From positions 2,833,488-2,897,487 of the forward strand of contig NZ_CP070608.1 in assembly GCF_017068455.1 (NCBI RefSeq): a stretch of 64,000 nucleotides of DNA, written 5' to 3'. The stretch comes from Fulvivirga lutea. GTDB taxonomy: Bacteria; Bacteroidota; Bacteroidia; Cytophagales; Cyclobacteriaceae. The notes under the pieces are model-generated. The model had not been told where the DNA came from. It saw nothing but the letters and a program-made list of their open reading frames with translations, and ran no database searches. Made by a program: the position numbers and the translations under genes. Shown in pieces: positions 52,627 to 62,498 of this stretch; positions within the stretch are counted from its first letter, which is position 1; the number at the start of each line of letters is the position of its first letter.

Positions 52627-52983
52627 ATGGCTACAAAATCGGAGGTTGAGCAATTTTTAAAGGAATTCAAAGAAAAATTGAAATTGACTAAAGTCTATTT
52701 TAGAGATGATAGAGGAAAGAATGCTCAAACTTTGGCCGATTTAGAAATTAGACCAATTGATAGAGAGAAAACACTATTAGAATTAGAATTTGAGGATTAT
52801 GCTGAAGGTCCACTTGAAGATACACTCTATAATAAAAGTGACATGTGGGTATTTGGTAAAGAAATAAAAGACAAAGAGATATATATTAAAATTTCTATTG
52901 GTTTTGGTGAAGGAGGTGTAATATGTATTTCATTCCATATAGCTGAAAGACCAATGAACTATCCATTTAAAGGACAACAATAA
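52627..52983 (+). CDS. MqsR-like toxin of a Panacea-type toxin-antitoxin pair
   Basis: A 118-residue protein. The end of the sequence matches the core of MqsR, a RelE-fold mRNA interferase: LYNKSDMWVFGKEIKDKEIY, where E. coli MqsR has a tyrosine-rich segment and the strand VYLKITV, here IYIKISIG. The toxin gene precedes the antitoxin as in mqsRA, and its stop overlaps the antitoxin start (TAATG). RNA cleavage is inferred from the fold; catalytic Lys/Tyr/Arg are not certain by eye. Confidence 0.62.
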   Translation: MATKSEVEQFLKEFKEKLKLTKVYFRDDRGKNAQTLADLEIRPIDREKTLLELEFEDYAEGPLEDTLYNKSDMWVFGKEIKDKEIYIKISIGFGEGGVICISFHIAERPMNYPFKGQQ

Positions 52984-53990
52984 TGAAAAGCCCAATTACA
53001 GGAAAAGAAATGTTACTGAAATTCGAGTTGAGAAAGCTTGAATTTAGAAAGGAGTCATTTACTGTGGCTTATCACTTTTATTTATGTGAGGAAAGTGAAG
53101 AGCAATTCACAACAACTGAATTAGATGAATTGAATATGATTCAATTATACAATCAGTATAGAGAGAAACACAATTTGCCATTTCCCAATGAAATAAAAGA
53201 AATCAGGGAGAAATATGGATTGCCTGCCACTAAGATGTCAGAAATTTTAGGCTTTGGAATCAACAGCTATAGAAATTATGAAGGCGGAGAAGTTCCAAGC
53301 TTGGCAAATGCAAGATTGATTCAGTTGGCAAGTGATCCCGCGAAATTCAGAGATTTAGTAGATCTTTCTGAAACTATTGAATCTGATTATAGAACGAAAC
53401 TTCTTGAAAAAATTGATTTACTAGTAGAAGACCAAGAAGAAAATTTATTTTCATTTGAATTTCAAGACTACCTATTAGGAGAACATATTTCAGATCAATT
53501 TTCAGGTTATAAAAAACCAAGCTTAGATAAATTGACAGAAATGGTTATATATTTTAGCCAAAAGCTGGAGCCATGGAAAACTCAGTTAAATAAACTTCTT
53601 TTTTATGCTGATTTTTTAACCTTCAAAAAAACATGCTTTTCAATGAGTGGAGCTAGATATCGCGCCATTAATATGGGGCCAGTACCAAACAATTACAACA
53701 GTATTTTTGAATACATGGCAAACAAAAATTTTATTGACATATGGATTACTGAATTTCCAAGTGGTGCCGTTGGAGAGCAGTTTAAGACAAATAAGAATAG
53801 AAAGTTCAATTCAAAAGTATTCAGTGAAATTGAATTAGAAGTTTTAAATACTGTTGCCACAAAATTCCAAAGCATGGGAACAAGTGATATCATTGAAATA
53901 AGTCATAAAGAAAAGGCCTGGAAGGCCAATGAAAAAGAAAGAAAAATAATTAGTTATAAAGATTATGGATTTGAATTAAAGGAATTATAA
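52983..53990 (+). CDS. MqsA-HTH/Panacea (SocA, DUF4065) antitoxin
   Basis: A 335-residue fusion. Residues about 60-115 are an MqsA/YgiT-type HTH (EIREKYGLPATKMSEILGFG, then SYRNYEGGEVPS). The N-terminal zinc finger is degenerate: SPITG replaces CPxC and a lone cysteine is in LCEESE. Residues about 190-300 are the Panacea domain (LNKLLFYADFL, then RYRAINMGPVPNN), known to neutralise varied toxins. It would bind the adjacent MqsR-like toxin and repress the operon. ORF overlap indicates coupled translation. Confidence 0.8.
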   Translation: MKSPITGKEMLLKFELRKLEFRKESFTVAYHFYLCEESEEQFTTTELDELNMIQLYNQYREKHNLPFPNEIKEIREKYGLPATKMSEILGFGINSYRNYEGGEVPSLANARLIQLASDPAKFRDLVDLSETIESDYRTKLLEKIDLLVEDQEENLFSFEFQDYLLGEHISDQFSGYKKPSLDKLTEMVIYFSQKLEPWKTQLNKLLFYADFLTFKKTCFSMSGARYRAINMGPVPNNYNSIFEYMANKNFIDIWITEFPSGAVGEQFKTNKNRKFNSKVFSEIELEVLNTVATKFQSMGTSDIIEISHKEKAWKANEKERKIISYKDYGFELKEL

Positions 53991-54050: not shown

Positions 54051-54095
54051 CTAATAAGGTGTAAAGTTTTGCCGACTTCATTGAGACTTATCATC

Positions 54096-54203
54096 TCAAT
54101 ACATCACCTTTATTCTGTGCTCCAAATTATGCATAAATCTCCATTTCTGCAAAATTGAGCCCAGAACAGCCATTCGTCTGGGTTTGATGAGGTTTCCTTC
54201 CAT
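54096..54203 (-). ncRNA. Candidate minus-strand small RNA or 35-codon small gene between TA and ubiquitin-like operons
   Basis: The terminator at 54011-54050 shows that this strand is transcribed. The transcript region has hairpins TCCTTC/GAAGGA and ATTGAGA/TCTCAAT, and also an ATG-to-TGA reading frame of 35 codons (start MEGNLIKPRRMAVLGSIL, with internal WRFMHNLEHR; basic, aromatic). I cannot decide between a small RNA, a small protein, or both. It is unrelated to flanking genes by sequence. Confidence 0.35.
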
Positions 54204-54254: not shown

Positions 54255-54515
54255 ATGGAAAATTTAAAGAAAGTAAAAAAGGATGTGACAATCATTGTCA
54301 ACGGAACTCCTCATGAAGTAGAAAAATCGGAAATTAGTTATGATCAGGTAGTTACACTAGCATTTCCTGATTTCCCTCAACATCCCGAAAGGACATATTC
54401 GGTTACTTACGAGAGAGGGCAGGGGAATAAGCCTGAGGGTATATTATCTCCAGGAGGTAAAGTTAATGTTAAACAAGGAATGATATTTTATGTTAAGCAT
54501 ACTGGCCAATCATAA
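54255..54515 (+). CDS. Ubiquitin-like protein of a bacterial conjugation-type operon (multiubiquitin family, single unit)
   Basis: An 86-residue beta-grasp protein. VTIIVNGTPHEVEKSEISYD, then VVTLAFPDFP and YSVTYERGQGNKPEG with a final VKQGMIFYVKHT are characteristic of multiubiquitin-family domains in prokaryotic ubiquitin-like loci; here there is only one unit. The C-terminus is TGQS, not GlyGly. The E1-like gene starts 26 bases inside its end. In related systems the protein is activated by an E1 homologue and joined to a target; here it may end at Gly or work without ligation. Confidence 0.78.
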   Translation: MENLKKVKKDVTIIVNGTPHEVEKSEISYDQVVTLAFPDFPQHPERTYSVTYERGQGNKPEGILSPGGKVNVKQGMIFYVKHTGQS

Positions 54516-55656
54516 TGATGATATAAAGTTATTGATAGACAAGGGATATGCCTTGTCTATTGATAACAATTATCTAGTAATTAGAGACATTCCTTATTTA
54601 GACAATAATAAAGATCTACAGTGGGGTGCAATTGTTTCTAAACTAGTTTTTGTTGATAAAAACAAGGTGAAAATTGAAGATCATCAAATATTCTTTTGTG
54701 GATATCATCCTTGTGAGTTAGATGGAAGCAAAATTAAAAATCTGGGCGGTGGAGTAGTAAAATTAGAATTGAGCTCCGATGATCTTTCCGTACAGAGATC
54801 ATTCTCAAATAAACCTCCAAATGGATTCAAGAACTGGTATGATAAAATAGAGAATTATGTTACGATAATTTCAGGTCCTGCTATTCATTTGTATGATGCG
54901 AACCCACTTACTTTTAGAGTGATTGAGGAGAAGAATGATTCAGTATTTAAGTTTAGCGATACATTAACAAGTCGAGCAGAAATAGGAGACCTTACTAACA
55001 ATTTTAAGAATGATAAAATAGCAATTATTGGACTTGGTGGTACTGGCTCTTATTTGTTAGACTTTCTTGTTAAAACACCTGTAAAACAAATAAGGGCTTA
55101 TGATGGCGATTGGTATCATGTTCATAATTCATATCGTTCGCCTGGAAGATTGTTCGCAAAGGAACTAGGCAAGAAAAAAGCAGATATTTATAAAAATAGG
55201 TACAGGAATTTCAGAAAGGGGATAAAGGTCATACCTGATTATATCCTTTCAGGGTCTGAATCAAAACTAAAAGGAATTACATTTGCTTTTGTTTGCGTTG
55301 ATAAAGGAGCCTCAAGATCTGAAATATTTGACCTATTAGTCAAAATGAAAATTCCATTCATTGATGTTGGAATGGGACTCGATAGAACACAAAACACAAT
55401 TGGAGGTTCTGTAAGAACAACATACTGTTCAGAAGATTCTGTAAAGAAAGTACTAAAGAATAAACACGTTCCATTAAGTGACATACCTGATGATATTTAT
55501 AAAAGTAATATCCAAATAGCTGAATTGAATGCTCTGAGTGCCTGTTTGGCTATTATTAAGTTTAAACAATTGCGGGGGTTTTATAATGACAATAGTAATT
55601 TTTACCATATGTTATTCAATATTGATAGTGTTAAGAACCATGGAATCAATCAGTAG
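54490..55656 (+). CDS. DUF6791-ThiF fusion, E1-like adenylating enzyme
   Basis: A 388-residue protein. Residues about 1-165 match DUF6791 (LLIDKGYALSIDNNYLV, IRDIPYLD, a histidine-cysteine cluster HQIFFCGYHPC at 65-75, FSNKPPNGFKNWY). Residues 175-365 are a ThiF/E1 Rossmann domain with GLGGTGSY (181-188) for ATP, AYDGD near 203-207, RSPGR at 216-220 and VCVDKG. Cysteines at 269, 313 and 352 could form the thioester. It should adenylate the small ubiquitin-like protein encoded just upstream. Start is ATG; no other in-frame start is near. Confidence 0.85.
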   Translation: MLSILANHNDDIKLLIDKGYALSIDNNYLVIRDIPYLDNNKDLQWGAIVSKLVFVDKNKVKIEDHQIFFCGYHPCELDGSKIKNLGGGVVKLELSSDDLSVQRSFSNKPPNGFKNWYDKIENYVTIISGPAIHLYDANPLTFRVIEEKNDSVFKFSDTLTSRAEIGDLTNNFKNDKIAIIGLGGTGSYLLDFLVKTPVKQIRAYDGDWYHVHNSYRSPGRLFAKELGKKKADIYKNRYRNFRKGIKVIPDYILSGSESKLKGITFAFVCVDKGASRSEIFDLLVKMKIPFIDVGMGLDRTQNTIGGSVRTTYCSEDSVKKVLKNKHVPLSDIPDDIYKSNIQIAELNALSACLAIIKFKQLRGFYNDNSNFYHMLFNIDSVKNHGINQ

Positions 55657-56047
55657 CCTCCAGCTAAAAAAGGTCAAATTTTTGCCTTCAAATCTTGAAC
55701 CTGGCATATTATATTTATCTAATGAGTATAATGTGGCAGGCCATTTATGTGCTTGTGGTTGTGGAAATAAGGTTATAACACCACTTGGATCAACCGAATG
55801 GACTTATTTCGAAAAGGAAGGTAAACCTTCTTTAAAACCATCTATAGGGAATTGGCAATTACAATGTCGATCTCATTATTGGATAAGGAATGGTAATATT
55901 TTTTGGTCTGGGCAATGGACTGATGAAGAGATTAAAGAAGGTTGGAAGAATGAAGAACTAAGGCGACAACAATATTTTGCTAAACGAAATAGGAATCAAA
56001 CAAAGAAATCAATTCTAAGAAGAATTATAGATTGGCTATTTAATTAA
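55640..56047 (+). CDS. DUF6527 family Cys/His protein in ubiquitin-like operon
   Basis: I use the ATG at 55640 (135 residues), inside the end of the E1-like gene by 17 bases; a longer upstream frame is only a shadow. Motifs: HLCACGCGNKVITPLG (H35, C37, C39, C41), then PSIGNWQLQCRSHYWI (C76, H79), a likely metal site. DUF6527 is repeatedly found next to multiubiquitin and ThiF genes. It could be a ligase, a processing enzyme or a structural partner; no function is established. The tail is basic and helical. Confidence 0.8.
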   Translation: MESISSLQLKKVKFLPSNLEPGILYLSNEYNVAGHLCACGCGNKVITPLGSTEWTYFEKEGKPSLKPSIGNWQLQCRSHYWIRNGNIFWSGQWTDEEIKEGWKNEELRRQQYFAKRNRNQTKKSILRRIIDWLFN

Positions 56048-56699: not shown

Positions 56700-59600
56700 T
56701 TAGTTTATGATCACTCTTTCTATTTTATTATTTCCATTAAACGCTGGGAAATACATTGATTCTACCTTAACAGGATTCATAGTGTATGTTCCTTTATAAC
56801 GTGGCATAAGTTTAATTTCATATTGGTGTTTACCAGGTTTCAATGTTCTTACGTAGATATTGGTTTTTTCTTTATAATACTCTCTATGCGTCTCATTAAA
56901 GTGTTTCGAATATTTGTTTGAGTAGCTAAATCCGGCAGGAATTGGCACTTCGATCATAAGAAAATCAACTTCATTTTTAATATTTAGGTCTACAATAAGT
57001 GACACTTCTTCACCACTTTTAATAACATAATCTTTACCATCAAAGTAACTACTCACTTTGATATTCCTATCATTAATTGCAGGGTTCTGAATCCATTTTT
57101 TTTGATAAGCAGAAATATACACCGGCAAGTTACTAGATGTACTTAGACTTAATAAACTATCATTTTTGATAGTTCTTTCAATTTCTAGATCATCCACTCT
57201 TTTCCCATTAACTACTAGTGATGGTGAGCTGTTTTCACCAACTATTGATTCAGTTATTTTGGATAATGTTTCAATTACTTGCGCTGATTCATAAGTATTC
57301 TTCCACTTACCTAAAGAACGCTTTTCGAATAAGTAATTTATTGCCCCATTTCTTAAATCAGAAAGGGTGTCGATGTTAGATAAAAGTTTAATCATTCGGA
57401 CGGTATTCACAAATCCATTATTATATACTTTGGAGTTATTATCATCCCAATATATGTTTCCAAGATAGGTTTCCTTGTGTCTATTGATAAGCGTATCCAA
57501 CTTTAAATCAAGTTGTAAATCTTTCTTTAGTTGGTAGTAACTAATTTGATCATGGAGGCCTAAGGAATCTATGTTGAACCTATTCAGATGACTTTCATAG
57601 TCAATATTTTCACCTAATAAATAGAGTGTGTTTAGGGCCCATAATTTATCAGTTGGCTCATAATCTTCAAGATTCCATTTAATCTTGGAAGTGATCGCCT
57701 CTGATTTATAACTCACGGAATAACCGTTTTGCTTAGCTATAATTAAAGCTGAAAGTACATGTTTTGTAATCCAGTCTTCTGATTGAGAATTACCCCACCA
57801 ACCCCACATGCCACTTTCATTTTGGTTTGATTCTAGTTTTTTGATTAGCTTTTTTACTTCTCGTTCTTTTTTAAACGATTGTACATTAGCCTCAGTGATT
57901 TTCTTTAGATAGAGTAATCCCTTCAACTTAGAGGCCATTTGTTCATTACAATCGTAGATATAACTACTTAGTGACACTGCTTCTTCCTGAATTATATCGG
58001 AAGTGCTTTTTAAAAATTTCAGTTTCACATCACCTAAGTTATTATCAAAAGTTAAATGATAGGTGCTGTCTTTTTTGATTTGAAAGAAATAACCTTTTGC
58101 CAATTCAGATCCTTTTTTCTTTATCTCAATAGCACGTGCCTCACCATCAAAGTAATTCCCATTTAGGCTTTTCATTTTAAAAGTAACCATCAAGGAATCA
58201 TTGGTGTCACTTGTTAATCTTATTGAATCGATCAAAGATCTTTGAAGTTTAGATGTATGAGTTTTAACATTTGATCCATTCACTAAAAAGTCATAATTGA
58301 CTCCTAAGGTATCCATTGTATAGTTAGTGATCTTACCGATGGCCATGGTTGTATCACCTTCTACGATAAAATCAGGAAGGCTTAAAAGAGTTGAAACCGA
58401 TTTGACTGATTTGACTGAACCTTCATATTTACCTGAAAACCTTTTGTTTCCCATACCGAGAATAATGGTTTTCCAATTTGTGATATCATCTGGATAAGTT
58501 ACTTCGAATGTGGCTTTACCGTCCTGATCAGTTAATAAATCTGGTTTCCAATAGGCATAATCTGAAAAATTTGACCGAATTGAATTGGCTTGACTGACCG
58601 AAGTTGCATTAATATCCTGCTCTGGTGCATTAATTCCTTTAGATCCTGGAGCTTTTGTCTTTATTAAAATCACACCATTGGACGCTCTTGAACCATATAA
58701 TGCAACGCCATCTTCTGAGGATAGTGTCTCAATTGATTGAATTGAATTTGGGTCTAAATCGGATTGCTTACCAGAGTAAGGCACTCCATCGATAATAATT
58801 AAAGCCTTTGAGTTTCCTACAATGGAGGTGTTTCCACGTATTATAATATTATCAGACGCACCCGCAGCTACTCCAGGAGCTTTGCCTTGTAAGGCAGTTA
58901 CACTATAACCTAGAGCCTTAGACTCTCTTCTAACACCCACAGCTGTAACAACTACCTCGGATAATTGCTGAACATCCGGTGACATTTGAACGTCAATAAA
59001 TCTTCTATTACCGACTTCTATTTCCTCGGTAGCTAACCCTATAAAACTAAATACTAACTCACTTCCTTTTGGTGCATAAAGTGTATAGTACCCATCTATA
59101 TCAGTAACAGTACCAATTCTTGTGCCTTTAACTACTACATTTACCCCTGGAAGCCCACTGCCATCCTCCATTGAAGTGATTCTTCCCGATAACTTATTAT
59201 CGAATGAACTATACCTGTTTGGTTGATTATTTACAAGCTCTTTTATAACTCTAATATTCTTATCTAATTCGCCTTTTATATAATTTGTTTGACCAACATT
59301 CTTTTTTAGAATGGATGAAATGGAGTCAATCATCGAATCGAAAGGAAGTATATTTGCATCGCTAATATTTATAAACAATGTACCATTTTCCTTAATCTCA
59401 TGAACTTCTTGTTCAAAATACTTATCGTCTTCCAAAAGGTATAATAGAGAATAGGAGCCAGGGGGTAGATCTTCGATATTTTTCACAGATGGATTATAGA
59501 CCCGTAATTGGTTAGGATCTGTTACACCCTTTAATATTACTCGATCAGTAAATAAAGAGAGAAATCTAACAGAATCTGATAACTGAATATTTAATCTGCC

Positions 59601-62498
59601 ATGTCCATTTTGAGTTTCTTGTGGAGTTTCATATTTATCACTTTTTCTTTCAGACTCAATTAAATATTCCTGCCATGAAGATTTTATATCAGCCTCTGAA
59701 AGAGCCAATTCTTCAAAATTTCGATAGTTCCAATGAATCTGATTTAGCCATCTATCAAAATAATTAGATCTAATTTCTTTAAGTTTAATTAAGTCATTTG
59801 AGAAAAGATATTCATTACCTGGCTCAACGATAAAGCCTGAGCTGAAATCATTTAATACAGTTAATTTGGCACTATCACTTCTCCAAGGGCCTGACAGTAG
59901 TGGATTGTTTCTACGATAATAAGAAGGTTGGTTTTTAGAAATTAATTCAACCCTTTCATATTGCTTTAAATATGCAAATTGGTTTTTGAAGTTATCATTA
60001 ATTAAGATGAAGTAATTAGCCAAAGTATTTTGTTCATTCTGACTTAATCGCCTTTCTTTTGATTCAATTTTAACTGTTGGTGAATCCTTGTCCATAAGAC
60101 TAAATATGGTCTTAAACCCCTCCTTAAATGAGATATTGCCAAAGGATATCTCTTTATCAGCTAACCTCAATTTGATATCATGTTCAACGTTTGGAGAGAT
60201 GTGAAATGAATAGTTTGCATTTAAAGCAGAACTAAAATAAACAGGATACTCGTCTACATAAATGATATATATTTTTTGAATATTTCCTTTCTCATCGACT
60301 ACAAAAGGGGCAAACTCTGTAGTTCCTGTTGTTATTGGAAATGAATAAGTATAGATACTATCTGGATAGAGAAAGTGATAGTAGGCAATGCTATCAAGTC
60401 CTAACTCTTTATATAGATTAGAGTAATCCAAATATCTATTTTCCGAAAGCCTATTCCCAAAAGTTTCTCTAAAGGAGTTAAACATACTTCTACCAGAATA
60501 GATTTTCCCCATGTAGGGTACTTCAGGCGTTGAGCCATGTTTATTCATGCTCTTTTTGTAAGAATATGCTGTTAAATCAATATTAGGTACCGGTTCTCCA
60601 TTCTGGTCTTTTACTAGTATATCTATTGAAACACTTGAACCTGGGTTAATAACAAGTGGCTCATTGCTTAAGATGTTCAAATTCTTATCGTAATAGGGAG
60701 CCTCCATTTGATTCTCCTCAACATTACCACCCCAAAGGTATTGGTATGAAATAAAGTAAGGTTTTTTGGTAGTAGTTGAGATTCTAAGTTCTTTAGATTT
60801 ATCTTCCAATAAACCACTTAATACCTCTTTTTTACCAGCAAATATTGTATACCAAAATGGAAGACTCCTTTCATTGTTCAATTTAATAAATAACGAATCA
60901 TTTGTCCTATTCCAGTTAATATGCACACCATCATCCTCATTATAAATTGGAAATGAGTAGATGCCTTCACTAGTTTCAATATGATAGGACGATGCAATCG
61001 GCAATATCTTTTCAGAATAAGGTAATATGATCGATTTGGTTAGTATATCATTAGCCCCAGACCTTACAATGAGTTTAGCATTTTGACTATAGCTTTGGTT
61101 ATCCTTTATGTATTTGAAATTTATGGAATCATTTTTCAACTCAAACTTCACTTCGGATGATTTGCTCTTATATTCCAAGTCCAACTCTTTGATCGACCAT
61201 TCATTGTCGCTTGTAAAAAATTTAGCATTAACCTTGTATCCAATATTTGCGGCTGGAAAAATGGAGTCTGGCAAAGTAAAATAAGTGTCTCCTAAAGGAT
61301 CTAATTTGAACTTATGCGTGAATAGCGTATCGTTAACAAAAACTTGATTTTGCTCGAATGAATTCAATCTGTTAAAAGTTATAATTAATTCAACTCTCGC
61401 ATCAGGTAAATTCAAATCATTATCATCCTTGGCAGTTAGAATAAGCTCTAACGGCTCACTACTAAAATGACTTTTATGTTTACTTTTTAAATTGAAATAA
61501 GCTGTATTCAATTCGTAGTCCTCATAATCGAATCCTTCTGAAATTACGGTATGATATTTCTTTTTTTCAAGATTGATATATTGATACCTATCTAGATCAA
61601 AGTCTAATGTATCATGAAGAACAAATTCATGAATATATACGCCCCTACGAGTTGGCTTAATCTTGCCAAGATTTTTAAATTTATTAGCATAATTACCTAC
61701 TGTAAGAGTTAAAGGTTTATTAAAACCGTTGTAGTTTTTTTTGATAATGTAAGCTTTAAATTTGACGGTATCTCCTGGTTTATACTTAGGCTTATTCAAA
61801 GCAATATAACCACCATACTTTTGCTCAGAATTATCTGAATTAAACCAACTCACTATTGTGCCAATAAATCCGGTTGGATATCCCCATCTAACAGACCTAT
61901 AAATATCAACAAATGGCTTCCACAAATACTTTATTGGACTTTTATATTTGATTTTCCGATAGATTCTTGCAGCTAGTTTATTGTTTCTTGATCTACCAAT
62001 TGGTAAGAATGTAGTATGTCCATTATAATTAGCTTTTAATAGCCCATCTAAATTACTTTTATGTTGATAGTAAGTATTTCTACTCTGATTGTACTTAATA
62101 TTTTTATTATCTACATGTAAAGAAGCATTGTCAATATTTTCACCGAATTCATCAAGCAAAACCACTTGAAAATCTTGCTCATTATTTATGATTCTTATTT
62201 CCAAATTATCAACTGACCTGTAGTCAATATTTAATTGGTTACCTAAGGCAACAACATACAGATAATGTCCTACTTCACGTGCTTTATTTTTAACACTGTC
62301 AGTATGAACTGAATCAACCAGGGAATGAAAAAAAATATCACCAACAACTGATATTGACTTTTTGTGAATGGCTTCAGCTTCTTCATTGGTTATTTGATAG
62401 ATATATGTAAATGGACTTGACCTTCTTCCATTTATAAGATCTTGAGCATGTGCTTTGAAGCAAATAATTAATAAAATGAATGTGAAAAATATCCTCAT
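56700..62498 (-). CDS. Alpha-2-macroglobulin-like protein with internal SusC-type plug module
   Basis: A 1932-residue exported protein (signal peptide 1-18). Near 225-330 is an MG2 domain (GGYIALNKPKYKPGDTVKFK). At about 1098-1172 lies a carboxypeptidase-regulatory beta-sandwich (DGSGLPGVNVVVKGTRIGTV) and at 1178-1286 a TonB-receptor plug with LSEVVVTAVGVRR and IIIDGVPYSG, as in SusC proteins but without a barrel. The A2M domain starts near 1309 (YWKPDLLTDQDGKATFEVTY), and the thioester motif is CNEQ (1517-1520), matching CxEQ. It may trap proteases or recognise a nutrient complex in the outer membrane; monocistronic. Confidence 0.88.
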   Translation of the reverse strand: MRIFFTFILLIICFKAHAQDLINGRRSSPFTYIYQITNEEAEAIHKKSISVVGDIFFHSLVDSVHTDSVKNKAREVGHYLYVVALGNQLNIDYRSVDNLEIRIINNEQDFQVVLLDEFGENIDNASLHVDNKNIKYNQSRNTYYQHKSNLDGLLKANYNGHTTFLPIGRSRNNKLAARIYRKIKYKSPIKYLWKPFVDIYRSVRWGYPTGFIGTIVSWFNSDNSEQKYGGYIALNKPKYKPGDTVKFKAYIIKKNYNGFNKPLTLTVGNYANKFKNLGKIKPTRRGVYIHEFVLHDTLDFDLDRYQYINLEKKKYHTVISEGFDYEDYELNTAYFNLKSKHKSHFSSEPLELILTAKDDNDLNLPDARVELIITFNRLNSFEQNQVFVNDTLFTHKFKLDPLGDTYFTLPDSIFPAANIGYKVNAKFFTSDNEWSIKELDLEYKSKSSEVKFELKNDSINFKYIKDNQSYSQNAKLIVRSGANDILTKSIILPYSEKILPIASSYHIETSEGIYSFPIYNEDDGVHINWNRTNDSLFIKLNNERSLPFWYTIFAGKKEVLSGLLEDKSKELRISTTTKKPYFISYQYLWGGNVEENQMEAPYYDKNLNILSNEPLVINPGSSVSIDILVKDQNGEPVPNIDLTAYSYKKSMNKHGSTPEVPYMGKIYSGRSMFNSFRETFGNRLSENRYLDYSNLYKELGLDSIAYYHFLYPDSIYTYSFPITTGTTEFAPFVVDEKGNIQKIYIIYVDEYPVYFSSALNANYSFHISPNVEHDIKLRLADKEISFGNISFKEGFKTIFSLMDKDSPTVKIESKERRLSQNEQNTLANYFILINDNFKNQFAYLKQYERVELISKNQPSYYRRNNPLLSGPWRSDSAKLTVLNDFSSGFIVEPGNEYLFSNDLIKLKEIRSNYFDRWLNQIHWNYRNFEELALSEADIKSSWQEYLIESERKSDKYETPQETQNGHGRLNIQLSDSVRFLSLFTDRVILKGVTDPNQLRVYNPSVKNIEDLPPGSYSLLYLLEDDKYFEQEVHEIKENGTLFINISDANILPFDSMIDSISSILKKNVGQTNYIKGELDKNIRVIKELVNNQPNRYSSFDNKLSGRITSMEDGSGLPGVNVVVKGTRIGTVTDIDGYYTLYAPKGSELVFSFIGLATEEIEVGNRRFIDVQMSPDVQQLSEVVVTAVGVRRESKALGYSVTALQGKAPGVAAGASDNIIIRGNTSIVGNSKALIIIDGVPYSGKQSDLDPNSIQSIETLSSEDGVALYGSRASNGVILIKTKAPGSKGINAPEQDINATSVSQANSIRSNFSDYAYWKPDLLTDQDGKATFEVTYPDDITNWKTIILGMGNKRFSGKYEGSVKSVKSVSTLLSLPDFIVEGDTTMAIGKITNYTMDTLGVNYDFLVNGSNVKTHTSKLQRSLIDSIRLTSDTNDSLMVTFKMKSLNGNYFDGEARAIEIKKKGSELAKGYFFQIKKDSTYHLTFDNNLGDVKLKFLKSTSDIIQEEAVSLSSYIYDCNEQMASKLKGLLYLKKITEANVQSFKKEREVKKLIKKLESNQNESGMWGWWGNSQSEDWITKHVLSALIIAKQNGYSVSYKSEAITSKIKWNLEDYEPTDKLWALNTLYLLGENIDYESHLNRFNIDSLGLHDQISYYQLKKDLQLDLKLDTLINRHKETYLGNIYWDDNNSKVYNNGFVNTVRMIKLLSNIDTLSDLRNGAINYLFEKRSLGKWKNTYESAQVIETLSKITESIVGENSSPSLVVNGKRVDDLEIERTIKNDSLLSLSTSSNLPVYISAYQKKWIQNPAINDRNIKVSSYFDGKDYVIKSGEEVSLIVDLNIKNEVDFLMIEVPIPAGFSYSNKYSKHFNETHREYYKEKTNIYVRTLKPGKHQYEIKLMPRYKGTYTMNPVKVESMYFPAFNGNNKIERVIIN

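Follow-up and report, generated by a model that had tools for sequence, protein, structure and literature searches.

How few genes does a bacterial pathway for conjugating ubiquitin-like proteins require? The question is raised by a 64,000-nucleotide stretch of the Fulvivirga lutea genome (RefSeq assembly GCF_017068455.1, contig NZ_CP070608.1, positions 2,833,488 to 2,897,487; hereafter the window), where three overlapping genes encode a ubiquitin-like protein (Ubl), an E1-like enzyme and a Cys/His protein of the DUF6527 family. Judging from sequence comparisons, we hold with moderate confidence that these genes form a minimal, mobile, Bub-related Ubl conjugation operon without E2 and JAB genes. 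Its parts, in positions of the window, are:

54255..54515, + strand: Ubl gene, encoding a one-domain Multi_ubiq beta-grasp protein of 86 amino acids with the C-terminus FYVKHTGQS (open reading frame and Pfam)
54475..54479, + strand: AAGGA, Shine-Dalgarno-like by its sequence, within Ubl Q-G codons and 10 nucleotides before the E1 ATG
54490..54515, + strand: Ubl/E1 frame overlap of 26 nucleotides, with the E1 frame +1 relative to the Ubl
54490..55656, + strand: gene for the E1-like enzyme, 388 amino acids, with DUF6791 (residues 10-158) and ThiF (169-380) domains (Pfam, NCBIfam)
54501..54512, + strand: Ubl tail codons T-G-Q-S
55640..55656, + strand: E1/DUF6527 overlap of 17 nucleotides
55640..56047, + strand: gene for the DUF6527 protein, 135 amino acids, with a predicted metal site among C37, C39, C41, C76 and H79, and an invariant S68

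All three proteins belong to Pfam families: the Ubl matches PF14452 (Multi_ubiq, E 1.5e-16) as a single domain over residues 11-81, the E1 matches PF20590 (DUF6791, E 6e-46) and PF00899 (ThiF, E 3.1e-13), and the third protein matches PF20137 (DUF6527, E 3.1e-23). NCBIfam places the E1 in NF004803 (PRK06153), a 'hypothetical protein' (1e-177). The original prediction, made without database searches, had described these three overlapping genes as a strict unit on the strength of the 26- and 17-base overlaps; the reading frames, families and overlaps all agree with it, and the gene set co-occurs in relatives. It had also stated that there is no separate E2 or JAB gene and that the Ubl lacks a C-terminal GlyGly, and this too is borne out. 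No E2 or JAB gene was found among nine neighbouring proteins scanned with Pfam, Prok-E2_E (PF14462) had no match in the whole Fulvivirga genome (a search made for that family but not for JAB), and the tail is TGQS. The neighbouring proteins scanned also contain no rhodanese domain, CD-NTase or MBL. Chance reading frames are ruled out by the conservation of all three genes across relatives, and a pseudogene by the three intact, conserved frames. Purine runs resembling AAGGA are visible in many relatives (uncounted).

To place the operon among its relatives, we used 104 loci, all found via the E1: 80 on genome contigs, 15 in genomes of the same phylum, 5 on plasmids, 3 on viral contigs and the window itself. 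The 80 come from one pattern search of genome contigs and are the best 80 of at least 477 relatives. As the loci are related, their counts are not independent trials, and it is a codon control within the genes (below) that bears the argument. A comparison of gene neighbourhoods across genomes, proposed with the original prediction, finds the families together: the Ubl is present in 103/104 E1 loci (the exception, L102, is cut by a contig end), as is DUF6527 (missing in L061, and 2.6 kb distant in L050). Among 395 genomes of the phylum, DUF6791 occurs in 14, Multi_ubiq in 22 and DUF6527 in 25 (24 over the cut-off), and all 14 with DUF6791 also have the other two families. Since this gene order recurs in many phyla, for the most part with the 26-nucleotide overlap, the operon is beyond chance. 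The Ubl frames of these relatives are mostly 80-316 amino acids long, with 56 of the 103 at most 125.

The distribution is sporadic. Within a set of 58 near relatives (own genome included), the E1 occurs in the Fulvivirga genome alone. Plasmid records with an E1 match number 114 (40 conjugative, 43 mobilizable and 31 non-mobilizable). The phage collection gave no E1 match; on viral contigs a single-protein scan found nothing, and a profile scan found five loci, three with a full-length E1. Given these few viral matches, we claim no phage link. The E1 tree (60 rows) has two deep halves, both with full support and each covering several phyla, and its 12 phylum groups require 18 label changes (minimum 11), which fits horizontal transfer but falls short of proof. 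The E1 of the window adjoins Owenweeksia and Gramella rows. The E1 frame is apparently broken in L010, L014 and L031. The flanking genes are uninformative for synteny within the genus, and a 631-nucleotide downstream stretch is single-copy in the genome.

The clearest constraint lies where the Ubl and E1 genes overlap. By projection on the E1 alignment, 93/104 loci have their Ubl stop 26 nucleotides beyond the first base of E1 position 1, and these loci occur in both halves of the tree. Ser ends the Ubl in 102/103 loci and Ala in one (L060), and position -4 is Thr in 100/103, which gives a family tail of the pattern T-x-x-S, more exactly T-x-[QKR]-S; the Ubl extends 8 residues past a conserved Phe. 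With this geometry, the last Ubl codon begins on the base that ends E1 codon 7. The shared base is T in all 92 loci with N, S, D, H or A at E1 residue 7; where codon 7 has the form AAN, AGN or GAN (L060 included), it is T in 86/87, where 46 would be expected from the AAY/AGY/GAY usage of the same genes. A C at this base would turn the last Ubl residue into Pro, which never occurs among the 103. A control position past the Ubl stop, the third base of E1 codon 9, has 49 T and 42 C. The other two bases of the Ser codon, together with the T of the Ubl stop, make up E1 codon 8, and the residue encoded there is variable (H 57, R 21, L 15). Because the shared base is nearly always T compared with the control, and because E1 residue 8 varies, the constraint falls mainly on the Ubl, whose tail appears to be under selection mainly in its own frame.

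Loci where the overlap is lost show the same tail. The Ubl and E1 genes are detached in 7/104 loci, all Bacteroidota and 5-7 nucleotides apart by projection, and these seven Ubls still end in KHTGQS. They are not one clade, since those included in the tree (L024, L026 and L028) share a six-row group with the overlapping window, L022 and L023. A solved protein has a similar end: the last domain of PDB 9cd2 ('ZDHYS365 multi-ubiquitin domain protein', 222 amino acids) aligns to positions 2-78 of the 78-position profile and ends in TQTDKS, a TDKS tail that it shares with 28 Ubl loci here. The 9cd2 protein has the tail type of the family but several domains, whereas the Ubl of the window has one.

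What would the E1 do with this tail? The original prediction had left room for a ThiF domain lacking ATP-binding residues, but the residues that we take to be those of ThiF/E1 enzymes are conserved: G183, G184, G186, D205, R216, K230 and D271 in 60/60 aligned E1s, and D207 and N213 in 59/60. Among solved structures, the E1 profile matches Citrobacter BubCD best (9ea5 and others; 6.5e-10 over residues 168-301), with TcdA at the same value, followed by UBA5 and MccB. It is very probable, from these motifs, that the E1 adenylates the Ubl. No Cys is invariant among the 60 E1s (the best are C269 with 51/60 and C75 with 38/60), making a family-wide E1~Ubl thioester unlikely.

Other uses of the adenylate have to be considered. 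A sulfur-carrier system of the ThiS/MoaD type would likewise pair a ThiF fold with a beta-grasp partner. Such carriers end in GlyGly, whereas the present Ubl ends in TGQS and its relatives almost always in Ser; with no C-terminal Gly, no rhodanese among the scanned proteins and no invariant Cys, this already disfavoured explanation is hardly credible. Alternatively, the E1 might adenylate the Ubl end and then nucleotidylate or cyclise it with the Ser, in the style of MccB or of ThiF-type enzymes for ribosomally synthesised and post-translationally modified peptides, so that the modified Ubl would itself be the effector. The reactive side chain of the near-universal last Ser, the lack of an E2 gene and of an invariant E1 Cys, the MccB match (about 9e-06) and a weak match of the single E1 protein to PaaA (E 0.0097) all speak for such a terminal modification. 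We nevertheless consider it unlikely, as the BubCD and TcdA matches are stronger than that to MccB, the substrate is a folded BubA-family Ubl, and DUF6527 is common to Bub operons. Finally, the Ubl could act non-covalently, by self-assembly or in filaments, the E1 then serving a regulatory role. Multi-ubiquitin proteins of known structure are long (222-261 amino acids), and bacterial Ubls are reported to form filaments, but the Ubl of the window has a single domain, over half of its relatives are as short as noted above, the tail is under selection and the ATP motifs are conserved, leaving this a very improbable explanation. Conjugation of the Ubl by the E1 remains our preferred reading.

If the Ubl is conjugated, the lack of an E2 gene directs attention to the DUF6791 domain fused to the E1, and in particular to one of its residues:

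54805..54807, + strand: codon of Ser106 of DUF6791, a speculative candidate for the transfer residue (conserved in 60/60)

His65 is equally conserved (60/60), K119 nearly so (59/60), D11 is invariant and K108 near-invariant. In BubB-type E2s, W-S-R-H is invariant and no Cys is (16/16). Comparing a DUF6791 profile (33 or 100 sequences) with these 16 E2s using hhalign gave P 0.006-0.011, colinear across the domain, and in the widest alignment Ser106 faces the Ser of WSRH. The forward score was 21.7, against 9.7 and 9.8 for reversed profiles compared with the other family; column shuffles reached the DUF6791/E2 score in 0/100 and 2/200 cases, and six of eight other profiles score at most 16 against DUF6791. 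DUF6791 may tentatively be seen as an E2-like transfer domain, diverged from the BubB type, although we lean somewhat towards its being something else. Whether the operon truly has no E2 depends on this. As a diverged JAB, the domain was rejected: the profile comparison reached only P 0.16-0.25.

Bub operons offer the closest comparison for the whole set, and structures exist for BubA, BubB and BubCD. All three are matched over their whole length by locus L192 (Citrobacter braakii), BubCD with E 1e-252. Eight genomes of the phylum have Multi_ubiq but not DUF6791; taking one stretch from each, the JAB motif H-x-H-P...S..D precedes the E1 in 8/8, and DUF6527 is present in 4/8 of these Bub-type loci. 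Of ten proteins from L165, L166, L168 and L170 compared with Pfam, four matched Multi_ubiq, three Prok-E2_E and three Prok-JAB (one below the cut-off). Ten plasmid loci with a similar Ubl-E2 have multiubiquitin and ThiF genes annotated in 8/10 and DUF6527 in 7/10. In a second phylum, Prok-E2_E matched in 4/299 genomes, one over the cut-off. The Bub Ubls here often end at Gly, or at Gly followed by the E2 or a few residues (e.g. TEG, STPG), and the solved BubA piece stops at residue 229, which is Gly in L192. We know of no publication that names DUF6527 as a criterion for Bub.

What, then, might DUF6527 contribute? H35, C37, C39, C41, S68, C76 and H79 are shared by 59/59 DUF6527 sequences; nine Bub-type copies lack H35 but for the most part have the Cys cluster, P-S-[IV] and C-x-x-H. 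No solved relative was found by sequence at a significant level. One explanation is that DUF6527 is a peptidase replacing JAB, which would cut the tail before use or remove conjugates, the Ser belonging to its recognition site. The invariant Ser68, His79 and Cys residues would suit a peptidase, and DUF6527 is near-universal in an operon with neither JAB nor E2. It coexists, however, with a JAB-motif E1 in L165-L168 and hence is no simple substitute, the tail is already short, and the spacing of the Cys and His residues resembles that of a zinc finger, suggesting a structural site; we give this explanation a low probability. As a separate observation, weak DUF6527 matches (about 2e-4) lie within frames of 583-595 amino acids in five genomes of one genus (G202, G249, G253, G382 and G398), none of which has a Multi_ubiq or DUF6791 match.

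The genes upstream suggest how the operon may be controlled. Family scans covered 122 of 167 upstream reading frames (the two nearest per locus, with short doubtful frames dropped), and the profile for ImmA/IrrE (M78) peptidases was iterated within the loci themselves. Such a peptidase lies upstream in 64/85 loci and downstream in none, the flanks compared being of similar length (471,630 and 446,602 bases), and all 64 keep HExxH. PADLOC assigns capP to 28 and capH to 21 of the 122 proteins, WYL regulators occur in 5/85 loci, and a CapS-like protein is found in L020 and, weakly, in L037; its neighbour is CapK by our own reading of distant anti-sigma/kinase matches. Among Bub operons, 219/544 adjoin CapW or CapH+CapP, which respond to DNA damage, according to the parts covered of a 2026 paper (PMC13373217). 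The window has a different pair of genes in this place:

52627..52983, + strand: gene for the MqsR-like protein of a toxin-antitoxin pair, a possible controller (weak Pfam match, E 0.084)
52983..53990, + strand: gene for an antitoxin with an MqsA-type helix-turn-helix and a SocA/Panacea domain, a possible controller (Pfam SocA_Panacea; NCBIfam 'MqsA family', E 9.8e-19)
54080..54100, no strand assigned: inverted repeat ATTGAGA-7-TCTCAAT, a weak candidate operator in the gap between the antitoxin and Ubl genes

This is the toxin-antitoxin pair that the original prediction had placed beside the operon. Its suggestion that the site fits a defence region gains from the relatives, which adjoin defence-type controllers. 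Four plasmid homologues of the MqsR-like protein are annotated as MqsR toxin (two, 47% and 52% identical) or as hypothetical (two). Homologues of both Mqs genes, 41-49% identical, precede the operon in L079 (1305-2665) and L093 (4349-5724). The antitoxin stop is 17 nucleotides from the Ubl start in L079, 11 in L093 and 264 in the window; in the first two, the pair appears close enough for co-transcription with the Ubl. Because L079 and L093 sit in the other half of the E1 tree, the pairing either originated two or more times or persisted across a wide evolutionary distance. The upstream inverted repeats of the window are not among the repeats listed for L079 and L093.

Other genes also recur upstream. 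A small DUF2188 gene, possibly an extra component or a marker, lies upstream in 17/85 loci (L027, L035, L039, L042, L044, L047, L048, L050, L052, L066, L068, L070, L074, L075, L078, L083 and L099) and downstream in one. A subtilase (S8) lies upstream in 6/85 (L055, L066, L068, L074, L075 and L078), and PADLOC calls five of the scanned proteins IetS. Some upstream proteins with an M78 match are long (L077, L086, L091, L092 and others), that of L086 being fused to a UvrD helicase and a PD-(D/E)XK nuclease; UvrD is matched by three scanned upstream proteins. Sigma-factor, hypothetical or helicase genes lie upstream in L018, L019, L021 and L195. Downstream in the window, 56700-62498 (- strand) encodes an alpha-2-macroglobulin-like protein of 1932 amino acids with inserted CarboxypepD_reg and TonB-plug domains, an unusual fusion.

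Taken together, these observations suggest a pathway in five steps. The ThiF domain of the E1 would bind ATP-Mg and adenylate the C-terminal carboxylate of the Ubl, as its conserved motifs suggest. The Ubl would come from translation with its short final tail, T-x-[QKR]-S, already in place, making a maturation protease unnecessary; this fits the absent JAB without explaining it alone. Ser106 of the fused DUF6791 might, speculatively, accept the acyl group as an oxyester or position the acceptor; given that no E1 Cys is invariant, the group would not be held as a family-wide thioester. The DUF6527 protein, common to Bub operons with E2 and JAB, could then act on the conjugate or target as an E3-like adaptor or deconjugase. 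Lastly, controllers of the CapH+CapP, CapW or CapK+CapS type would repress expression until stress lifts the repression; in the window, the MqsR-like/MqsA-Panacea pair would take their place. Expression of the operon is probably stress-induced, and we think it somewhat likelier that the Ubl is covalently conjugated to other proteins than that it is not. For an antiphage or stress-immunity role the balance is about even; Bub itself has not yet been shown to protect against phage, according to the parts covered of the 2026 paper (PMC13373217).

Several observations weigh against this pathway. The overlap is not universal: 11/104 loci lack the 26-nucleotide form (the seven detached loci, L010 and L014, whose E1 frames are broken, L076, which has 29, and L102, which is cut), and 7 of the 93 overlapping loci (L022, L032, L039, L049, L053, L054 and L062) have no start codon at the aligned first E1 position; beginning at an in-frame ATG found 15 nucleotides upstream, the E1 would overlap the Ubl by 41. 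The overlapping bases could in part serve coupling at the RNA level, and the Ala end of L060 means that the Ser is not absolutely required, or that this copy is degenerate. For DUF6791 as a hidden E2, the hhalign probability is 3.8-6.4% with 16 E2s and 0.9% (P 0.058) with six, the comparison in global mode gives P 0.72, and the 2/200 shuffles mentioned above equal its score. A ThiF_C decoy from the same E1, not overlapping the query, scores 22.0 (P 0.007, 18 columns) compared with 21.1 for the E2s (a ThiF_N decoy also scores above the E2s, but overlaps the DUF6791 query), and DUF6791 compared with its own reversed profile gives 24.7. In Pfam, DUF6791 members hit no E2 family, and the members of neither family hit the other. 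As to control, the window has no CapH/CapP, CapW or CapK/S controller adjoining the operon, and the Mqs/Panacea pair stands alone elsewhere: 118 genomes hold three full-length homologues besides that of the window, plasmids hold others, and the annotations around these stand-alone pairs show no Ubl operon. Finally, stand-alone Bub Ubls end exactly at Gly beside a JAB in L165 and L190, and that of L186 also ends at Gly (its E1 lies outside the JAB scan). As L165 and L190 combine a ready Gly end with a JAB, a ready tail cannot be the whole reason for the missing JAB.

A full pathway in three genes, with a ready Ser-ended modifier, an E1 with a built-in E2-like domain using Ser (oxyester), a zinc-type accessory and control by DNA damage, is therefore doubtful as a whole, the more so as a decoy equals the E2 profile in score. 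If it were true, we would know of no smaller operon for Ubl conjugation, and the last residue of the modifier would take part chemically. Even the broader reading of a minimal Bub-related operon, if right, shows how little Ubl conjugation needs, and breaks two textbook rules, the C-terminal glycine and the separate E2. The frame overlap provides a codon-level argument for selection on the tail, and the last Ser and Ser106 are directly testable. Moreover, the recurrent CapH/CapP-type controllers place a gene set known only as an annotation since 2006 among the probable DNA-damage-controlled immune or stress operons, to which the Mqs/Panacea pair may add a further controller of the CapH/CapP sort.

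How does the operon compare with known systems? Cap2 of CBASS, an E2-E1 fusion, and 6A-MBL carry an E2-type or other N-terminal domain fused to ThiF, and PADLOC E1-E2 models match the ThiF part here (best 2e-08); these matches are, however, confined to residues 137-286, and the nine scanned neighbours include no CD-NTase, MBL or JAB. Bil operons (BilABCD) contain a Ubl and an E1, as does the present one, but have separate E2 and JAB genes, of which there are none among the proteins scanned beside the present E1. An ordinary Bil or CBASS system was rejected, as no E2, JAB or CD-NTase adjoins the operon.

The original prediction knew of no role assigned to this gene set, but the set is on record: it is related to Bub, by the BubCD profile match, and had been described in 2006. 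In row 6e, Iyer, Burroughs and Aravind (2006; PMC1779556) list an operon type with a 'domain X' E1 subset, in which 1-3 Ubl repeats (about 70-75 amino acids) accompany a metal-binding protein and an E1 whose JAB is replaced by an uncharacterised N-terminal domain in which several charged residues are conserved. The present operon resembles it in its one Ubl domain, DUF6791 in the place of JAB, a Cys/His partner and a sporadic, mobile distribution. We infer from this description, rather than from the 2006 sequences, that domain X is DUF6791 and protein Y is DUF6527. Their partner motif is C-x3-C-x(35-38)-H-x2-C, whereas that of the window is C-x3-C-x34-C-x2-H, with a spacing of 34 and the last two residues swapped; they suggested a zinc finger, perhaps a treble-clef, for target recognition or as an E3-like adaptor. 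The parts of that paper covered report no tail motif, overlap or controllers for the domain-X Ubl set. In the literature covered, to which Ye et al. 2026 and Gong et al. 2025 do not belong, we found no prior mention of the nearly invariant C-terminal Ser, the frame overlap, the Ser106/E2 idea or the controller counts, no match for DUF6527 or DUF6791, and no paper on mechanism.

The nearest system is Bub. The two share a Multi_ubiq Ubl (the same Pfam family as in L165, L166, L168 and L170), a ThiF domain related to BubCD (which TcdA equals in profile score), a DUF6527 partner and carriage on plasmids. Neighbours of the CapH+CapP, CapW or CapK+CapS type, common in Bub without being obligatory, accompany relatives of the present operon but do not adjoin it in the window. 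The two differ in that Bub operons encode Prok-E2_E (BubB), either on its own or fused to the Ubl, and a JAB on the E1, neither of which is present here, and in that several Bub Ubls end at Gly, or at Gly followed by the E2, whereas the present Ubl ends at Ser. The gene set is already known (PMC1779556, in the parts covered) and stands near Bub, but lacks two of its features, the E2 and the JAB.

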